Of a stretch of 44,844 bases of DNA, positions 19,118 through 26,798 are shown piece by piece. The notes below the pieces were generated by a model. That model searched no databases. It worked only from the letters and a program-made list of their open reading frames with translations, and had not been told where the DNA came from. The stretch is from Verrucomicrobiota bacterium JB023 (lineage in GTDB: Bacteria > Verrucomicrobiota > Verrucomicrobiia > Verrucomicrobiales > Akkermansiaceae), in the NCBI GenBank assembly GCA_030673895.1, contig JAUTCR010000076.1, positions 1-44,844 of the forward strand, written 5' to 3'. A program made the position numbers and the translations under genes. Each line of letters starts with the position of its first letter. The stretch's first letter is position 1.

Positions 19118-19190
19118 GGTGAGTCTTTTCTAACCCATTTATGCCTCTTGAACAGCCTGCAAGGTGAAAAGCCCCGGCGGTGAAGGGTTG

Positions 19191-19225
19191 GCGGGGAGAG
19201 GCGGCGGGGAGAGGCGGCGGGGAGA
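19191..19225. repeat. Short 13-bp tandem repeat
   Basis: The 13-bp unit GCGGGGAGAGGCG occurs twice in direct tandem (19191-19203, 19204-19216) and a third time for its first 9 bp. It lies in the 251-bp gap between the divergent metallo-hydrolase and MuiA-type genes. No function is evident; it could be a slippage-prone purine-rich tract. Confidence 0.75.
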
Positions 19226-19368
19226 ACCCGATACTACTGCAGGTTTCGTTGCATTCTGTCTTTGGGCGAGACAATCGAGGAAGAATGTCTGAAAATGCTG
19301 TTTTTTACGCACTTTTTACAGAAAAGGCCCGGGTGGTGGCGTTTGCTGAATTGACGACTGTTATCAAA

Positions 19369-21234
19369 ATGAAAACGAAAACAATGCTATCGATCGGCCT
19401 CGCAATCGCAGGAGGCATGAGCTTCATCAAGGCGCAGGAGGCGCCGGAGGAACCACCCGGGAAAAGTGTGGAGAAGCCCGCCTCGAAGAGCGGGCAAGGG
19501 ATCCAGGAGGTGACCCTGTATCAGGGGACGGCTTTGGTGACCCGGCGGATCACCATCCCGGAGGAACGCGGAGGCTCTTTCGAGATGGTGGTGAAGGGGC
19601 TGCCGACAACGACGGATCCGGAGTCGGTCTTCGTGGATGGCTCGTCGGGGCTGGAGATTCGTTCGGTGACCTGCCGCATGCGTTCCAGTGAGGAAACCCT
19701 GCGGGTGGAGACGGAAGTGAAGAAGCTGGATGATCGCATCGATGAGCTGGAGCGGAAGATTAGCAATGCGCGTAATGAGATTGCCCTCCGCCGGATTCGG
19801 CAAGAGTTCCTCCGCAATCTCGGGAACTTCGTGGCTCCCGCGGCGAGGCAGGAGATGGAGCACGGGGTCCTGCAGGCAGAAGAATTGTCCAAGGTGACGC
19901 AGATGCATTTTGAGGAGTACGAGACCGCCTCCCAGGAAATCATGAAACTGGACTTCGAGATCGATGATGACAGCGAGGAACTTTCCCGACTGCGCTCGGA
20001 GAGAGGCAAACTTGTGGCCGGGCCGACGCAGATCTACGATGCGGTGGTCTTTGTGGAGAAAGAGGCCGGAACCAAGGGAGAATTCTCGCTAAACTATCTG
20101 GTGAAGGATTGCGGTTGGTCACCGGTTTACAATGTGCGGGGTCAATCCGGAGGCGACGAGGTGAAGGTGGAGCTGAATGCCCTCATCCATCAGGTGAGTG
20201 GCGAAAGCTGGGAGAAGGCCCGGCTCATCCTCTCGACGGCTTCCCCGACAGTGAGCGCGCAAAATCCAGAGCTCACACCCTTGCATGTCCAGGTCCGGCA
20301 GGGCGGTGTTCTGCCTCAACGGGAGGATGTGGCTCAGGTGGCCGAACAAGTCGATCGATACAACCGCGCCCTGCAGGCCAAGAAGAAGGCGAACAAGATG
20401 GTCCATAGCGGACGGTCCGTCGAGGAGGTTGCCAAGGCTAATTACGAGGCCAACGAGTTTGCCGCCAGCGCGCAACTGATCGAGCTGTCCGAGCAGCTGA
20501 ATCAGTTTCAACGATTGGGAGGAGGCAAGGAAGAGGAAGAACTAGCCATCCAGTATGAGCTGCAACGACCCGTCTCTCTGGTAAGCAGGCGGGAGGCGCA
20601 GATGGTGCCAGTGCTCGAGGCGGATTGCCCGGCTTCCTTTTACCACATCGCCACGCCCGTGCTCACCAGCGCGGTCTTCCGGGAGGCGGACTTGGTGAAT
20701 ACCAGTGGTGAGGATCTTCTGGGCGGTAAGGTGAATGTTTACCTGGATGATGAGTTCATCGGCCGCACCGAGATGCCGACCATCGCCCGTGGGCGGAATT
20801 ACACGCTGGGTTTCGGAGTCGATGGCCAGTTGAGGGCGCGTCGTAATTTGGTGGAGCGAACCGAAACTGTCCAAGGCGGTAACCGGCAGGTAGCAATCGG
20901 TGTCGAGGTGGTGCTGGATAACTACAAGGAGCAGCCAATCAATCTCCGTCTGCGGGAGAGGACCCCCTTCATGGAAGACACGGCCAGCTTGCGGGTCTCG
21001 TTGAGCGAGACCTCACTGCCCTTGAGCCGGGATCGCGACTACACCAGATTCGAGCGTCCCAAGGGTATCCTTCGCTGGGATCTCCTCGTCGAGCCAGGCA
21101 CGGGTGAGAAGTCCACAACGCTGAACTACGCTTACCGGCTCGAGTTCGACAAGAGCTTGACCCTGGAGGAGATCAGCGGAGAGAAGGCCTCCATCCTCCG
21201 CAGCGAGTTCATGGAGCGGGCCCGCCGCCGATAA
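19369..21234 (+). CDS. MuiA-family (DUF4140/DUF4139) secreted protein
   Basis: A 621-aa exported protein. A signal peptide (residues 1-22, ending FIKAQ) precedes a DUF4140 domain (VTLYQGTALVTRRITIP, about residues 44-60), a long charged coiled coil (about residues 115-220) and a DUF4139 domain starting near NYLVKDCGWSPVYNVRG and running to the C-terminus. This is the mucoidy-inhibitor MuiA architecture. A DUF4139 insertion of about 80 residues rich in Ala, Lys and Glu (around residues 320-390) adds further helix. ATG 19369 is preferred because it gives a signal peptide. Biochemical role of the family is unknown, probably envelope-associated. It converges on the VWA gene. Confidence 0.88.
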   Translation: MKTKTMLSIGLAIAGGMSFIKAQEAPEEPPGKSVEKPASKSGQGIQEVTLYQGTALVTRRITIPEERGGSFEMVVKGLPTTTDPESVFVDGSSGLEIRSVTCRMRSSEETLRVETEVKKLDDRIDELERKISNARNEIALRRIRQEFLRNLGNFVAPAARQEMEHGVLQAEELSKVTQMHFEEYETASQEIMKLDFEIDDDSEELSRLRSERGKLVAGPTQIYDAVVFVEKEAGTKGEFSLNYLVKDCGWSPVYNVRGQSGGDEVKVELNALIHQVSGESWEKARLILSTASPTVSAQNPELTPLHVQVRQGGVLPQREDVAQVAEQVDRYNRALQAKKKANKMVHSGRSVEEVAKANYEANEFAASAQLIELSEQLNQFQRLGGGKEEEELAIQYELQRPVSLVSRREAQMVPVLEADCPASFYHIATPVLTSAVFREADLVNTSGEDLLGGKVNVYLDDEFIGRTEMPTIARGRNYTLGFGVDGQLRARRNLVERTETVQGGNRQVAIGVEVVLDNYKEQPINLRLRERTPFMEDTASLRVSLSETSLPLSRDRDYTRFERPKGILRWDLLVEPGTGEKSTTLNYAYRLEFDKSLTLEEISGEKASILRSEFMERARRR

Positions 21235-21318: not shown

Positions 21319-24045
21319 CTAGCGCCGATTCTTGGCGCGATCAAAGCGTGAGGAGCGCGCGGAGCTCGATTTCGGAGGAGAAGGCATTGGCGCGGACTCT
21401 TTTGGTTTCTTTGGCTCCTTCGGTTTGTTTGTTTCCCCGGGCGGCTTGTCCGATCCGGGTCGGACGGTGACCGGTGGAAGTGGCTGCCGCTTGGAAAGAG
21501 GAAGTTGGGGAAGGGTCCATCCGGTGCGGGTGATGAGGGCATCGGCGAGCATCAGCAGGAGGGCTAGGATGCCCAATGGGAGCCTCAAGTCGCTGGAATA
21601 AGTTGCCGGGGGCCGAAGCCAAGCCTTGGAAAGATCAATCAGCTCTCTGCCTCCCGAGCTGTTGGATACGCTGCGTAGTTCGGCGAGGCGGTCTGGATCG
21701 AAGGTCCATTCTGTCGATGAGCCGACGGCGACCGGCCCGAAGGGGAGGGCATACTTGCCAGCCTGCACCGAGCCCTTGACGACGGAGCCCTCCTCCAGCT
21801 CCCGCGTTAGGGTGAATTCGCCCGGGGCGAGGCGCTTCCATGTCACCTCATAGGGCCGACTGCCCGGGCCGTTCTCGAGAAATTTCACCGTCGGCGGGCG
21901 CGCGGAGAAGACGTCGCTCCACTCCTCGATGTCATAGAGAAGGTCCAACGTCAGGGTGGTCCCTTGCAGCCGGTGGCGCATACCGAGCCCGGGGGGAATG
22001 GCATCACCCGAGACCCAATTGGCGACTGACTGCATGAAGTTACCGTAGCCAGGCCATTGCCGTTGACGTTGCGAGAATTCGCCGCCCAGGGGGAAGGAGA
22101 TGGCCATCGTGCGTCCGAGGCCCCGGCGAGCATGGGCAACCAAGGGGGCAAGGTACTCGTCCTGGGCAACGAGGGAAGTCGTCGCGTCCGGCCGAGCGTA
22201 CGATAGATTGTAGCCATCGACAGCAGGCAGCCAGTCGATTTGCCCCTGGAAAATCTCTGCCCCTCGCCCGGTGGGCTGCGTTCTAACAGGCTCTTCAATG
22301 AAGGCTGAGCGAGCGATGGTCACCGTCTCTTGCGCAAAGAGCTTGGGGATATCCATGGCATTGGTGGTGAAGAATGAGCGTCCATTCCCAAGGGTGGCAA
22401 TCTCTTCAAGGAGGGCCGCATCCGAGTCCGCCTTGGTGCCCAGTCCGATGACGGAGACGGTCGCTTCCTCCTTGGTCATCTCCTTGAGCAGGGTCTTGTA
22501 GGCCCCCGGCTCCTCGGAATCTGCGGCATCGGAGAAGAGGATGATATGCTTCGTTCCGACCTTGGATTTCTTCAGCTGGTCCCAAGCGGCTTTGAGGCCT
22601 CGATAGACATAGATGCCTCCCCCCTGCGACTGGACGCTGCGGGCTTTGCCAATGAGTTCATTCTTTCGATTCTTGATCTGGGTGAGCTTGACGATGTTAT
22701 GAGGCTCGGAATCAACAGCGAGGATGGCGACCTCGTCCATCATTCCTAACAGGTTGATGGCATCTGCGGCCCCGTTGTTAGCGAGGTCCATCTTGGTCAC
22801 CATCTTGCCTCCGGCATTGGCTGTGGCCCCCATTGAGCCCGAGCGATCCAGTACGATGGCGAGCGCAACCGCGAGCTTACGGTGCTCGTTCTTCAATTCC
22901 ATGGAGACGGGAAGAAGGGCATCGATGGATGACTCGAAGTAGCCGCCGGAACCAAAGGATTGTTTGCCACCGGCCATGAGAAATCCTCCGCCTTGTTCTT
23001 CCACATAAAAGGGTAGGGCATCGAGGAAGTCATTGGGAATCTCGAAGGCGGGGACGTTGTTGATCAGGACAGCCTTGGCCCCGGAGAGCATGCCGGGACG
23101 CAAAGTCGCCGGATCGCGAACGACTTGCAGGGAATAGCTTTGGTCGACGAGGACTTCTTCCAGAGGGTCGGGATCGTATTTGGAGACCAAGAGAACCCGG
23201 GGCCCTCCAATGACTTCGATCCATCTCTCGGAGGCGTTATTGCCCGGGTGGGCGTCCTCGAGCGGCGGAGTGCTTAGCGCAGGCTGGATCTCTGCGCGGT
23301 ATTGGTAGGAGCCGGTGCGGAGAAGCCGGTCGGTGAATTCGATTCTGCCCACCCCGTTGACAAGCTTGACGGAGGTCTCTTCAAGCAGCCCCTCGTTGCG
23401 AAAGATACGGAGGGGGACCTCCTTGTCCTCGGCACCCCGCACGGTGATCGAGAGCACAAAGGGCTCCCGCACCTGCGTCCGCTCGGGCACATGGAGACGG
23501 CTGAGGGAGTAGTCGTCCGCCGTTTCATCTCGGACGAGGCGGAAGTCAAAGGGCACACCCTGAGCCTTCAATTTAGCCGAAGCCGAAGCGAGAGACTCGG
23601 TAGCAAAGCCATCGGTGAAGGCGAGGATCCGGGCGGGGCGCTCGGAGCTGGCGAGAGCAAGCGCATTCTGAATGGCCAGATTCGTGCGGGTGAGCTTGCG
23701 GGAGCCGGTATAGACGGCCTGATCGTTTTGGTTCTGATCGATGACCTCGGCCGCATAGTCGATGTAATGAATCTCATCTCGCCGCGAAGGTTTCGAGTTT
23801 TCGAGAATCTCTTTCCACTCGGGTAATCCTTGGTCGACGAGATCCTCGGTTGACTCTGAGCGGTCGAGAAGCACCCAGAGGTCCAGCGCCTTTTGCTGTC
23901 TGGTGATCCGGGGGTCGGCCAGGATGAGTGTCAGGATGGCCAAAAGAAGCAAACGAAGAGGCAGGAAGAGCCGGAGCTTCTTCCAGATGAGACCCAGAAC
24001 GAGAAGGGCAGGGAAGAGAATAAGGAACTCGGGCCGCTCGAACAT
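21319..24045 (-). CDS. VWA and amidotransferase-like domain membrane protein
   Basis: A 908-aa membrane protein. Two N-terminal hydrophobic helices (residues about 5-45) precede a first VWA-like domain with LWVLLDRSEST, which keeps the DxSxS MIDAS core. An Ig-like section and a glutamine-amidotransferase-like segment follow (GGFLMAGGKQSFGSGGY), into which a second VWA domain is set, with VLDRSGSMGATA as its MIDAS and LFSDAADSEEPG later. A C-terminal helix near LGILALLLMLADALI and a Pro/Lys/Ser-rich cytoplasmic tail end the protein. The architecture is of the BatA-neighbour large VWA proteins, usually near MoxR ATPases, which are absent here. ATG 24045 is preferred over upstream GTG/TTG. Probably a metal-dependent adhesion or assembly scaffold. 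Confidence 0.88.
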   Translation of the reverse strand: MFERPEFLILFPALLVLGLIWKKLRLFLPLRLLLLAILTLILADPRITRQQKALDLWVLLDRSESTEDLVDQGLPEWKEILENSKPSRRDEIHYIDYAAEVIDQNQNDQAVYTGSRKLTRTNLAIQNALALASSERPARILAFTDGFATESLASASAKLKAQGVPFDFRLVRDETADDYSLSRLHVPERTQVREPFVLSITVRGAEDKEVPLRIFRNEGLLEETSVKLVNGVGRIEFTDRLLRTGSYQYRAEIQPALSTPPLEDAHPGNNASERWIEVIGGPRVLLVSKYDPDPLEEVLVDQSYSLQVVRDPATLRPGMLSGAKAVLINNVPAFEIPNDFLDALPFYVEEQGGGFLMAGGKQSFGSGGYFESSIDALLPVSMELKNEHRKLAVALAIVLDRSGSMGATANAGGKMVTKMDLANNGAADAINLLGMMDEVAILAVDSEPHNIVKLTQIKNRKNELIGKARSVQSQGGGIYVYRGLKAAWDQLKKSKVGTKHIILFSDAADSEEPGAYKTLLKEMTKEEATVSVIGLGTKADSDAALLEEIATLGNGRSFFTTNAMDIPKLFAQETVTIARSAFIEEPVRTQPTGRGAEIFQGQIDWLPAVDGYNLSYARPDATTSLVAQDEYLAPLVAHARRGLGRTMAISFPLGGEFSQRQRQWPGYGNFMQSVANWVSGDAIPPGLGMRHRLQGTTLTLDLLYDIEEWSDVFSARPPTVKFLENGPGSRPYEVTWKRLAPGEFTLTRELEEGSVVKGSVQAGKYALPFGPVAVGSSTEWTFDPDRLAELRSVSNSSGGRELIDLSKAWLRPPATYSSDLRLPLGILALLLMLADALITRTGWTLPQLPLSKRQPLPPVTVRPGSDKPPGETNKPKEPKKPKESAPMPSPPKSSSARSSRFDRAKNRR

Positions 24046-24421
24046 GTCCCGAATATGAGGCAACACGCGCCAAGGGGGAGGGAAATTCGCGGGAAATTTA
24101 ACAACCTTGGCTCAGCATCATTTGGGCATTGATAATCAATGGCGAACGCGCCAAGGGAAGGGCGCGGTTTCTCGCAACTTGGTCCCGTCTTTCTTCTCAA
24201 TCAGGCTGCTAGGCGCCTTCAGCCCGAGCCAGCTCCGGGAAGGACCCGGGCTAATGAGGCTCGAAATGATGGGGCCGATGCCATTCATTTGATCTTAGCT
24301 TGGGCCATCGTGCCATGAATCGGCTCAGGATGGCGATGGAAAGAATATCTCAAGGTTGGGGAGGCTGGCAGTGCGCGTACGTTCACTTGTTCGAAGGATG
24401 ACCTTCTGTTAGTCATCAATC
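24046..24421. other. Divergent intergenic region with two inverted repeats, 376 bp
   Basis: This gap separates the VWA gene from the DUF5685-like gene. It holds a 15-bp palindrome, CATTGAT-A-ATCAATG (24127-24141), and a GATGAC/GTCATC inverted repeat with a 9-nt spacer (24397-24417) ending 4 bp before the ATG at 24422. Either could be an operator; the second could instead fold over the ribosome-binding region. No recognisable coding region or RNA gene is seen. Confidence 0.45.
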
Positions 24422-25486
24422 ATGTTCGGTTTCCTGCAAGCTCCTAGCAATCCGTGTTGCGGGCAGACTCCTTCGCTCTGGAGAGGACACTTTTGCGGAT
24501 TGGCCACACGCCTGCATCAGGATTTTGGAGCGTGGGCTCGAATGCTGGTGAACCGTGATTCCACCTTTCTGGCTTTGTCCGCCGCCGGAAGCGGGGACCA
24601 GGCCCGGATAGCGACTTGTTGTAACCCGCTCTCGCCTCCCAAACCGATCTATGACCAGGGCCCGAATGTTAGTTATGCGGCCGACATCGCGCTCTGTGGC
24701 CTCAGCATGAAACTACGAGACGATCGTGATGATGAGGGCTGGGGGCGAAGGCTGCTTTCCCGAGCTGGTCTCGCTAGTGTATCAGGAGCGGTGGACAAGG
24801 CTGTTGCTCGCCTCAACGGACTAGGTTTTCCTTCGCATGAAGTCTTACAGACGATTAGTGCTCAGGGTCGGCTGGAGGCCGAGCGTCCCGACGCGCTACG
24901 AGCAGCGGGACCAACCTCCGAAGCTTATGGGCGAATTTTTGGATTCGCGGGATCAATGAACTCTTCGTCAGGCACTGAGTCGAATCTGGAAAAAATCGGG
25001 CACTCCCTTGGTCGTTTGATTTACTGGGATGATGCTTGGAGAGATTGGCGGAAGGATCAGAGAAAAGGACGATTCAATCCTCTGCAAGTGACTTCTGCAG
25101 ATGAGCTGAGAACGCTCATTGAAAACGAATTTGTTCGCCTCGAGGCTGAGGTTGAACAGTTAAGAGAGAGCCCATCACGAAACGTGCTGCAGCAGGTGGT
25201 GACCCAAACCCGCCCGCGGTTGCCAATGGAAGGGGAAACACCGGAGGAGGAGAAGAAGAGGAAGGAGAGGGAAAAAGAGTTGCGGCGGAAAAGAAGACGC
25301 GAGCAGGGAGACGATTGTTATAACAGGTGCGAATGCTGCTCTTGCTACGATTGCACAGGGTGTCTCACCTGTGGAGGGCGGACGGCGACAGGGAGTAAAG
25401 GGGCTTGTGATGCGTGTTTTGATTGCGGTCCCGGTGACCGTGGTTGCATCGACTGTAATCCTTGTGATGGATGTTCGTGTTGTTAG
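24422..25486 (+). CDS. DUF5685-like protein with cysteine-rich tail
   Basis: A 354-aa protein. The N-terminus MFGFLQAP with HFCGLATRLHQDFG and DSTFLALS follows the DUF5685 pattern, as do CCNPL (66-70) and the aspartate-rich segment LRDDRDDEGWG (99-108). A second segment, LIYWDDAWRDWRKDQRKGRF (199-218), follows the family's D-rich C-terminal block. Residues 275-297 are a highly basic helix, and residues 299-354 contain 17 cysteines, mostly as CxxC steps (CTGCLTC, CDACFDC, CIDCNPCDGCSCC). No signal peptide is clear. The paired Asp motifs recall all-alpha isoprenoid synthases, but that is inference; DUF5685 has no known function. It leads a group with two tiny membrane proteins and a racemase. 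Confidence 0.78.
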   Translation: MFGFLQAPSNPCCGQTPSLWRGHFCGLATRLHQDFGAWARMLVNRDSTFLALSAAGSGDQARIATCCNPLSPPKPIYDQGPNVSYAADIALCGLSMKLRDDRDDEGWGRRLLSRAGLASVSGAVDKAVARLNGLGFPSHEVLQTISAQGRLEAERPDALRAAGPTSEAYGRIFGFAGSMNSSSGTESNLEKIGHSLGRLIYWDDAWRDWRKDQRKGRFNPLQVTSADELRTLIENEFVRLEAEVEQLRESPSRNVLQQVVTQTRPRLPMEGETPEEEKKRKEREKELRRKRRREQGDDCYNRCECCSCYDCTGCLTCGGRTATGSKGACDACFDCGPGDRGCIDCNPCDGCSCC

Positions 25487-25494
25487 ATAAAGAA

Positions 25495-25677
25495 ATGACG
25501 GTGCAAGATTTGACGACGGGAGTAGGGCAGTTTCTAGGTCCGGTATTGGGGATCTACCTGGCTTTTAAGTTGACGAATTGGTCATTGCTCACCGTGCTGT
25601 TAGTTGGTGGTTTCGGTGGATTGGTAGGGGGTGTGTTTATGGGGCTTTTTGTCGCCTTTCTGTTGCGCCATCTTTAA
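25495..25677 (+). CDS. Small membrane protein (60 aa)
   Basis: A 60-residue protein with two glycine-rich hydrophobic helices (about residues 10-28 and 33-56, with VLLVGGFGGLVGGVF) separated by a short polar turn. ATG 25495 follows a purine-rich stretch (AGATAAAGA) and starts 8 bp after the Cys-tail gene's stop; an in-frame ATG at 25471 overlapping that gene is possible. No family recognised. Tight spacing suggests cotranscription and possibly a membrane partner for the preceding protein. Confidence 0.6.
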   Translation: MTVQDLTTGVGQFLGPVLGIYLAFKLTNWSLLTVLLVGGFGGLVGGVFMGLFVAFLLRHL

Positions 25678-25775
25678 AGTCTCCGTTCGCGAGCGGGTTG
25701 CATGGCCTTGACATAGCGTGGTGCTTGCGAAGGGGGCTACCGCTCGCTAGCCTCGGGGGAGCTTTGGGCGCAAGA

Positions 25776-26474
25776 ATGAAAAAATTTGGTCTGATCGGGG
25801 GAACTTCCTGGCACTCGACGGTGGAATACTACACCACGATCAATCGTACGATCAACGAACACTACGGAGACAATACAAATCCTCCTCTCCGATTGATTAA
25901 TCTCAATCAGAAGCTCATTCACGATTACCAGCGTGCGGACGATTGGGATGGAGTGGCCGGTGTCTTCATCGATGCGGTGAGAGAACTCAACAGTCTCGAA
26001 GTCGAGGGAATGGCCCTTTGTGCCAATACTCCACATAAGGTGTATGACCGGTTGGCAGAGCAATCGACGAGTCCGATTCTTCACATTGCCGACTCGATAG
26101 GATCTGAAGTCGAAGAGGTGGGGATCACAACGGTCGGTCTCTTGGGAACTCGATTCACCATGTCGGAAAATTATATCAAATCCAGACTTTGTGAACACTA
26201 TGGTATCAAGACGCTAGTTCCCAGCGAGGAGCAGCAAGAACTCATCCAAAAGCAGATCTATCACGAATTGTCAGTCGGCCAATTCACCAAGGAAACTAAA
26301 GAGCTCTGCCTCACCATCGTTGCCGAAATGGCAGAGCGAGGTGCGGCGGCAATTGTCCTCGGGTGTACTGAGTTTCCTTTGCTTCTCAAAGAAATTGAGA
26401 TGCCAATTCCTGCCGTGGACTCAATCGCCTGTCATTGCCGGGATATTTCTCGCTTCATTCTTGAGTCTAGCTGA
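25776..26474 (+). CDS. Aspartate/glutamate racemase family protein
   Basis: A 232-aa cofactor-independent amino-acid racemase. The start MKKFGLIGGTSWHSTVEYY is the family hallmark. The two catalytic cysteines are in ALCANTPHK (Cys82) and VLGCTEFPLL (Cys197). Length and both motifs fit the aspartate racemase / YgeA group, which interconvert L- and D-amino acids via the two-Cys proton relay. ATG 25776 is used; the frame is open farther upstream but without homology. It lies 98 bp downstream of the small membrane gene. The substrate (Asp, Glu or a broader set) cannot be decided. It is intact. Confidence 0.93.
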   Translation: MKKFGLIGGTSWHSTVEYYTTINRTINEHYGDNTNPPLRLINLNQKLIHDYQRADDWDGVAGVFIDAVRELNSLEVEGMALCANTPHKVYDRLAEQSTSPILHIADSIGSEVEEVGITTVGLLGTRFTMSENYIKSRLCEHYGIKTLVPSEEQQELIQKQIYHELSVGQFTKETKELCLTIVAEMAERGAAAIVLGCTEFPLLLKEIEMPIPAVDSIACHCRDISRFILESS

Positions 26475-26567
26475 ACTCATCATGATGGGTGGGCCGTCTG
26501 TTGCCGGTATTAAGATGTCGGATGATTATGTTTTATCTTGTTGGCTAAGCAATGCGGTGTTAGTGGA

Positions 26568-26798
26568 ATGCTGATGAGTAGCCGCGGTAAATCATTTCTG
26601 AAGGGTGGCCTGGGTTGCTTGGGTATCTTTCTTTTGCTTGGCTTTGTCGCCGTTCTTGCTGGAGGCAGTATGCACTTGGATGCCGGAGGAGTGATTCTCT
26701 TGCTTCTCATTGGCGGGGGATTGGGGCTCATCGGACATTGGATCTATCAGAAAGGGGTCCATGATGCGGAGGCTGAGGACGAGACGGAAGATTGGTAA
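26568..26798 (+). CDS. Small membrane protein (76 aa)
   Basis: A 76-residue protein with two transmembrane helices (about residues 15-35, GCLGIFLLLGFVAVLAGG, and 40-60, VILLLLIGGGLGLIGHWI) and an acidic C-terminal tail (DAEAEDETEDW). Basic residues before the first helix place the N-terminus in the cytoplasm. ATG 26568 or ATG 26574 can start it. No family is recognised. It is 93 bp after the racemase and may belong to the same transcription unit. Confidence 0.6.
   Translation: MLMSSRGKSFLKGGLGCLGIFLLLGFVAVLAGGSMHLDAGGVILLLLIGGGLGLIGHWIYQKGVHDAEAEDETEDW

Follow-up and report, generated by a model that had tools for sequence, protein, structure and literature searches.

A DUF5685 protein of Verrucomicrobiota with a predicted isoprenoid-synthase-like fold and a conserved cysteine-rich tail

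The stretch analyzed here, called the window, comprises 44,844 nucleotides of contig JAUTCR010000076.1 from Verrucomicrobiota bacterium JB023, and our subject is one of its genes, which codes for P0001, a protein of the DUF5685 family. An earlier annotation made from the letters alone, here the sequence-only reading, had described P0001 as a DUF5685-like helical body joined to a basic helix and a tail with many cysteines, had compared its two Asp-rich segments to the paired Asp motifs of all-alpha isoprenoid synthases, and had placed it at the head of a cluster of small genes. A Pfam scan matches residues 1-231 to DUF5685 (PF18937) with 90.8 bits against a cut-off of 26.7 (E 1.2e-25); the open reading frame (ORF) is real and its product belongs to the family. 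This is the only DUF5685 match in its own genome at E <=0.001. The gene and the parts of its product are as follows; confidence in the model is given as the predicted local distance difference test score (pLDDT).

24422 to 25486, plus strand: DUF5685 protein P0001, 354 amino acids (Pfam PF18937)
24422 to 25231, plus strand: predicted all-alpha isoprenoid-synthase-like domain, residues 1-270 (AlphaFold2 model and VIA fold match)
24455 to 24622, plus strand: stretch holding the core cysteines C12, C25, C66 and C67, a possible metal site (alignment conservation)
24710 to 24733, plus strand: first Asp-rich motif, KLRDDRDD (K97, D100, D104), near the C-terminal end of helix 81-104
25007 to 25081, plus strand: second Asp-rich motif, residues 196-220, LGRLIYWDDAWRDWRKDQRKGRFNP (G197, Y201, D204, D208, D212, N219)
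25241 to 25303, plus strand: predicted charged linker helix, residues 274-294 (DSSP on the model)
25316 to 25483, plus strand: Cys-rich tail, residues 299-354, with 17 Cys and pLDDT <50

The structure prediction and fold search that had been proposed as a check on the isoprenoid-synthase comparison return isoprenoid synthases as the best matches. An AlphaFold2 model of P0001 built from 24 sequences (mean pLDDT 82.6) is all-alpha and of high confidence in the body but of low confidence in the tail, with the ten-residue blocks between residues 21 and 290 at mean values of 84-98. Residues 6-269 of this model superpose on the polyprenyl synthase 4jxy with a VIA Z of 19.9 (237 residues, 2.9 A), and a second model, of the homologous Kiritimatiellota protein L050 (mean pLDDT 82.4), superposes on the same structure with a Z of 18.8 (239 residues, 3.0 A); for comparison, five mostly helical models that lack a clear match typically reach a best Z of 14. 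As the second model was built from the same 24 sequences in another order, it checks the query rather than the alignment. Foldseek searches of the PDB with the P0001 model likewise recover isoprenyl diphosphate synthases (best E 6.2e-5), and trans-isoprenyl diphosphate synthases (trans-IDS) and MoeN5 head the results of the PDB fold searches. Squalene/phytoene synthases are absent among the 50 VIA matches listed for either model, which does not exclude them, and a sequence search for solved relatives gave a single chance-level match (E 0.87). The predicted structures of both P0001 and L050 thus have the all-alpha class I isoprenoid synthase fold.

Homologues were collected from two sources. 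A profile scan of genome contigs yielded 24 loci, all of them, by title, from Verrucomicrobiota, Kiritimatiellota or the PVC group. Those of other phyla, two from Clostridia and four from Actinomycetota, come from the plasmid collection only; five of these six pass the Pfam DUF5685 cut-off, and the sixth, the Subdoligranulum protein L057, is 36% identical to its Pusillibacter counterpart over 95% of the latter. In the 29 sequences compared across these groups (L049 and L052 were left out, and the N-terminally cut L006 was used in alignments A1 and A3 and as a query only), residues D100, E152, D204, D208, D212 and N219 are kept without exception, and D104 is kept in 28, the remaining sequence having Glu. 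K97, D100, D104, D204, D208, D212 and N219 are also invariant in alignment A1 (23 sequences).

Both Asp-rich segments lie where the sequence-only reading had placed them, and its comparison of the second one to squalene/phytoene synthases holds at the level of motif spacing. The first motif has the same form as the RxxDDxxD of SQS_PSY proteins, and the second follows the spacing Gxxx[QY]xx[ND]xxxDxxxD that is found in all 29 SQS_PSY proteins examined. The two motifs occur at the expected separation in 24 of the 29 DUF5685 proteins (P0001 included), in 29 of 29 SQS_PSY proteins and in none of 29 polyprenyl synthases, of which 11 have the second pattern, three the first and two both, at other separations. 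(A length filter had removed one of 30 loci from each reference set, L060 from SQS_PSY and L105 from the polyprenyl synthases.) The two-motif pattern was written after viewing DUF5685, so these counts speak for consistency and not for an independent discovery; the second motif arose in none of 5800 shuffled sequences. The D-x3-D-x3-D series also coincides with positions 1, 5 and 9 of the class I terpene cyclase motif [N/D]DXX[S/T]XX[K/R]E, as given in PMC7839719, a spacing that SQS_PSY proteins share. On the model, D100 and D104 end helix 81-104. In the second motif, D204 is close to the end of helix 185-207, D208 comes directly behind this helix and D212 belongs to helix 209-214; judged only by the positions of these helices, the two motifs may face one cavity.

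A second set of conserved residues consists of cysteines in the body of the protein. C12, C25, C66 and C67 are invariant in alignment A2 (24 sequences), and C25 together with a Cys at position 66 or 67 is kept in all 29 sequences across phyla, which makes these cysteines as conserved as the Asp residues. This can be read in favor of a pseudoenzyme, in which the isoprenoid-synthase fold would serve as a scaffold or metal sensor, the core cysteines (C12, C25, C66/C67) and the tail would bind Zn, Cu or Fe-S, and no turnover would take place. However, five Asp residues at class I metal-motif spacing, retained in three distant groups, exceed what a scaffold would need. We regard such a pseudoenzyme as unlikely, if still the foremost competitor of an active enzyme.

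The tail itself is as the sequence-only reading had described it: 17 cysteines fall within the last 56 residues (299-354) of P0001, whereas the runner-up 56-residue stretch among the 229 window ORFs of at least 60 amino acids has six, and none of 20000 shuffles of P0001 reaches 17. The adjoining "basic helix" survives in part, since a K/R-rich helix is indeed predicted at residues 274-294, but acidic residues are plentiful too, with 12 K/R and 10 D/E among the 28 residues that precede the tail. In the 21 full-length proteins, which are the window protein and those of 20 of the 24 loci (L040, L048 and L049 are cut by contig ends and L052 has a broken ORF), the tail is always present; it is 24-57 residues long, contains 8-21 cysteines (30-53%) and follows a stretch with 5-12 K/R per 28 residues. 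The tail evolves under a pN/pS (ratio of nonsynonymous to synonymous change) of 0.05-0.41 in ten pairs, below the value of the body in eight of them, and retained tail cysteines often differ by synonymous TGT/TGC codons; these ratios are rough because synonymous sites are near saturation in several pairs. The Cys-rich tail is thus a conserved feature of the family within the phylum. In all 21 proteins it has more acidic than basic residues, and it has just 1-7 large hydrophobic residues, a composition that would also suit a metal-binding pseudoenzyme. The tail of P0001 has no second match in its own genome, and no metallothionein model appears in it among Pfam matches up to E 1. The broken gene comes from a metagenome-assembled genome (L052:8001-9052), where an internal stop in the DUF5685 frame reflects either a broken gene or an assembly error. 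In another record of the window's phylum (L006/L123), Sel1 repeats are fused to a DUF5685 domain that the start of the contig truncates (L123:14-1183).

The last 60 residues of each of the four Actinomycetota homologues hold 7-18 cysteines. The two Clostridial DUF5685 proteins have none in their last 30; in both records the gene that follows codes for a J-domain protein with TPR-like repeats, which has 7 or 9 cysteines in its own last 30 residues.

L054:5337-7259: Pusillibacter faecalis, region where a J-domain/TPR gene with a Cys-rich end directly follows the DUF5685 gene
L057:5677-7282: Subdoligranulum variabile, region where a J-domain/TPR gene with a Cys-rich end directly follows the DUF5685 gene

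From the gene order it appears that in Clostridia the Cys-rich module is supplied by a separate J-domain/TPR protein, though two cases are too few for a rule. A tblastn search of the plasmids with this protein matched 88 records, and among the 30 listed only these two have long matches. A scan of viral contigs with the J-domain alignment gave at least 80 loci whose matches cover only residues up to 127 of 203, and was not used. The J-domain genes of the window's own genome comprise one strong DnaJ match and a weak one below the cut-off. In Pusillibacter an RseC-family gene precedes the DUF5685 gene, and ispD-ispF lie about 4 kb upstream. Large related proteins are also encoded near DUF5685 in Nocardia (L055:228-3218) and Nonomuraea (L059:1321-3654); the Nocardia protein has TPR repeats, and the match between the two may reflect repeats alone.

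The presence of a Cys-rich tail either in cis (all full-length Verrucomicrobiota/Kiritimatiellota and Actinomycetota proteins) or on the adjacent gene (both Clostridial records) makes it conceivable that the enzyme prenylates thiols of this tail, acting on itself in Verrucomicrobiota and Actinomycetota and on the J-domain/TPR partner in Clostridia, giving a lipidated cysteine string for membrane attachment. In favor of this proposal, members of the superfamily that prenylate peptides exist, namely ComQ, PalQ and the P domain of ChrPC, so far acting only on Trp according to PMC13290415. However, the tail is polar and acidic, and its cysteines suit metal binding at least equally well. We hold tail prenylation to be improbable, and slightly more so the fuller version in which DUF5685 would be a bacterial protein S-prenyltransferase that lipidates a cysteine string, an unrelated counterpart of the lipidated cysteine string proteins.

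Downstream of P0001 three genes follow on the same strand, with gaps of 8, 98 and 93 bases; their start codons are our choice.

25495 to 25677, plus strand: small hydrophobic protein, 60 amino acids, without a Pfam match up to E 1; a neighbor outside any conserved unit
25776 to 26474, plus strand: Asp/Glu racemase-family protein, 232 amino acids (PF01177 E 1.1e-36; TIGR00035 above cut-off); a neighbor outside any conserved unit
26568 to 26798, plus strand: small hydrophobic protein, 76 amino acids, without a Pfam match up to E 1; a neighbor outside any conserved unit

The sequence-only reading had P0001 followed at once by two tiny two-helix membrane proteins and a racemase; all three genes are indeed downstream, but the racemase sits between the small proteins, whose "two-helix" label is read off their hydrophobic sequence and so should be taken as putative. 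The arrangement on one strand with short gaps could suggest that the P0001 gene heads a membrane or redox operon with these neighbors. However, no homologue of the racemase or of either small protein is found near DUF5685 in the 24 relatives (blastp E up to 0.5, ORFs of at least 50 amino acids; flanks of up to 8 kb, with at least 1979 bases downstream in 19 loci and only 1-345 in L032, L033, L040, L048 and L049). The relatives include Roseibacillus persicicus (L030) and R. ishigakijimensis (L031), each with about 8 kb per side. The adjacency in the window is therefore most likely incidental, and the operon, lacking conservation across relatives, was rejected as a candidate; we consider it very improbable. 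Neither a small-gene cluster led by P0001 nor a membrane or redox module formed with the downstream genes is supported, since the 24 relatives surveyed do not show this neighborhood.

In a wider comparison of the window and the 24 loci (blastp E 1e-6, ORFs of at least 50 amino acids), the only families recurring beside DUF5685 in at least four of the 25 stretches are sulfatases, in five with the window included; rarer shared neighbors would not show in this test. Sulfatases are abundant in this bacterial group, and the other recurrent clusters are ORFs that overlap DUF5685 in other frames. Upstream of P0001 in the window lie a gene for a DUF4139/DUF4140 protein and, convergent to it, one for a large VWA-domain protein (19180-21234, 21319-24066). 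No part of the window matches Rfam at gathering score, and a scan of it for promoters and terminators was uninformative.

DUF5685 is present in at least three distant bacterial groups, with a patchy distribution: it was found in eight of 288 genomes at the level of the phylum, 22 of 260 at that of the family and eight of 38 close relatives, and in one of 14 control genomes, that of Thermotoga maritima. SQS_PSY genes are present in 36 of the same 38 related genomes, hence DUF5685 is unlikely to be an ordinary squalene/phytoene synthase, and the genome of P0001 has two separate SQS_PSY genes of its own. The imbalance of 36 against eight also accords with a pseudoenzyme. The possibility that the window gene came from a phage or plasmid was considered and set aside, there being no tblastn match in either collection, no plasmid DNA match and no viral-contig relative.

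Taken together, the predicted fold, the conserved Asp constellation and the motif spacing similar to squalene/phytoene synthases support the isoprenoid-synthase link, and we propose, with a probability of roughly 0.55, that P0001 represents an uncharacterized branch of the all-alpha (class I) isoprenoid synthase superfamily that uses prenyl diphosphates and carries a metal- or thiol-based tail. In such an enzyme the Asp residues on helix 81-104 and in segment 204-212 would hold Mg2+ and the diphosphate of a prenyl diphosphate, in the manner of squalene/phytoene synthases and class I terpene synthases, and the domain would thereby ionize or transfer the prenyl group. More tentatively, the Cys/Asp/Gly tail on its charged helix might form a module, based on metal or on thiols, with a role in docking, anchoring or regulating the enzyme; its Clostridial version would come from the J-domain/TPR protein of the next gene. 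We would rank a prenyl-diphosphate-using enzyme as most likely, a metal-binding pseudoenzyme next, and an enzyme that prenylates itself or a partner as possible.

Several observations weigh against the proposed enzyme. P0001 has no Pfam match to PF00494 or PF00348 up to E 1, and profile-profile comparison by hhalign gave no significant match of DUF5685 either to SQS_PSY (E 0.21, aligned over the second motif) or to polyprenyl synthases (E 0.079); in a control, SQS_PSY and polyprenyl synthases, which are known relatives, likewise failed to reach significance (E 0.15), and this comparison cannot separate the two families. Foldseek with the L050 model returned nothing at E <=0.001, with the same kind of enzyme on top at 2.3e-3. 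The two-motif pattern is missed by five of the 29 DUF5685 proteins, which are L054, with Gln for Lys 97 and hence no first pattern, and the four from Actinomycetota, which have His for Tyr 201 and lack the second pattern, two of them lacking the first too. A205 is invariant (A1, A2) at position 2 of the terpene-cyclase motif, where the version quoted in PMC7839719 has D. The placement by subfamily is unsettled, as the nearest structures are polyprenyl synthases and the motif spacing is that of SQS_PSY. No homologue of SQS_PSY or polyprenyl synthases is encoded near the gene in the window stretch and the 24 loci, a point that also favors a pseudoenzyme, and the Asp residues could conceivably have been retained by such a pseudoenzyme for structural reasons, an explanation that we find doubtful but worth keeping in mind. 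As for the tail, its pN/pS exceeds that of the body in two of the ten pairs, and between zero and eight of its cysteines are replaced per pair. Finally, the reach beyond the phylum depends on just two Clostridial and four Actinomycetota records in the sample.

A full-text search that did not extend to any bioRxiv preprints or to most subscription papers returned nothing on the function of DUF5685 and no mention of PF18937; the one paper found to contain DUF5685 (PMC9403866) has it as a mere name in a list. An earlier fold assignment may exist in literature outside that searched. The placement in the superfamily, the intact Asp constellation and the Cys-rich tail, whether on the same protein or on a neighboring J-domain protein, together define a concrete biochemical test. 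Should the tail prove to be prenylated, it would add a new type to bacterial protein lipidation; every characterized trans-IDS-like prenyltransferase targets Trp, according to a 2026 review (PMC13290415).

As to known systems, ComQ and PalQ are peptide prenyltransferases of the same superfamily, as PMC13290415 and PMC5331326 describe them, and unlike the activity conceived above they modify Trp on a separate peptide. ComQ has lost the Asp-rich character of its second motif (PMC5331326), whereas in DUF5685 the motif is fully kept. Set against its own Pfam family, P0001 extends beyond the matched region by the charged helix and the Cys-rich tail. A J domain and a Cys-rich end occur together in the eukaryotic cysteine string protein (DNAJC5). 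The Clostridial partner protein, known here from its genes, joins the same two elements; it differs in its TPR repeats, and we claim homology for the J domain alone. The trans-IDS and MoeN5 provide the best fold matches for residues 6-269 of the P0001 model. They are unlike DUF5685 in that its second motif reads D-x3-D-x3-D, and none of the 29 polyprenyl synthases combines both motifs at a DUF5685-like separation. The SQS_PSY proteins (PF00494) share with DUF5685 the series [RK]xxDxxxD and Gxxx[QY]xx[ND]xxxDxxxD, separated by 100-114 residues in DUF5685 and by 118-121, once 138, in SQS_PSY, and DUF5685 departs from them by having Y or H in place of Q and by its Cys-rich core and tail.

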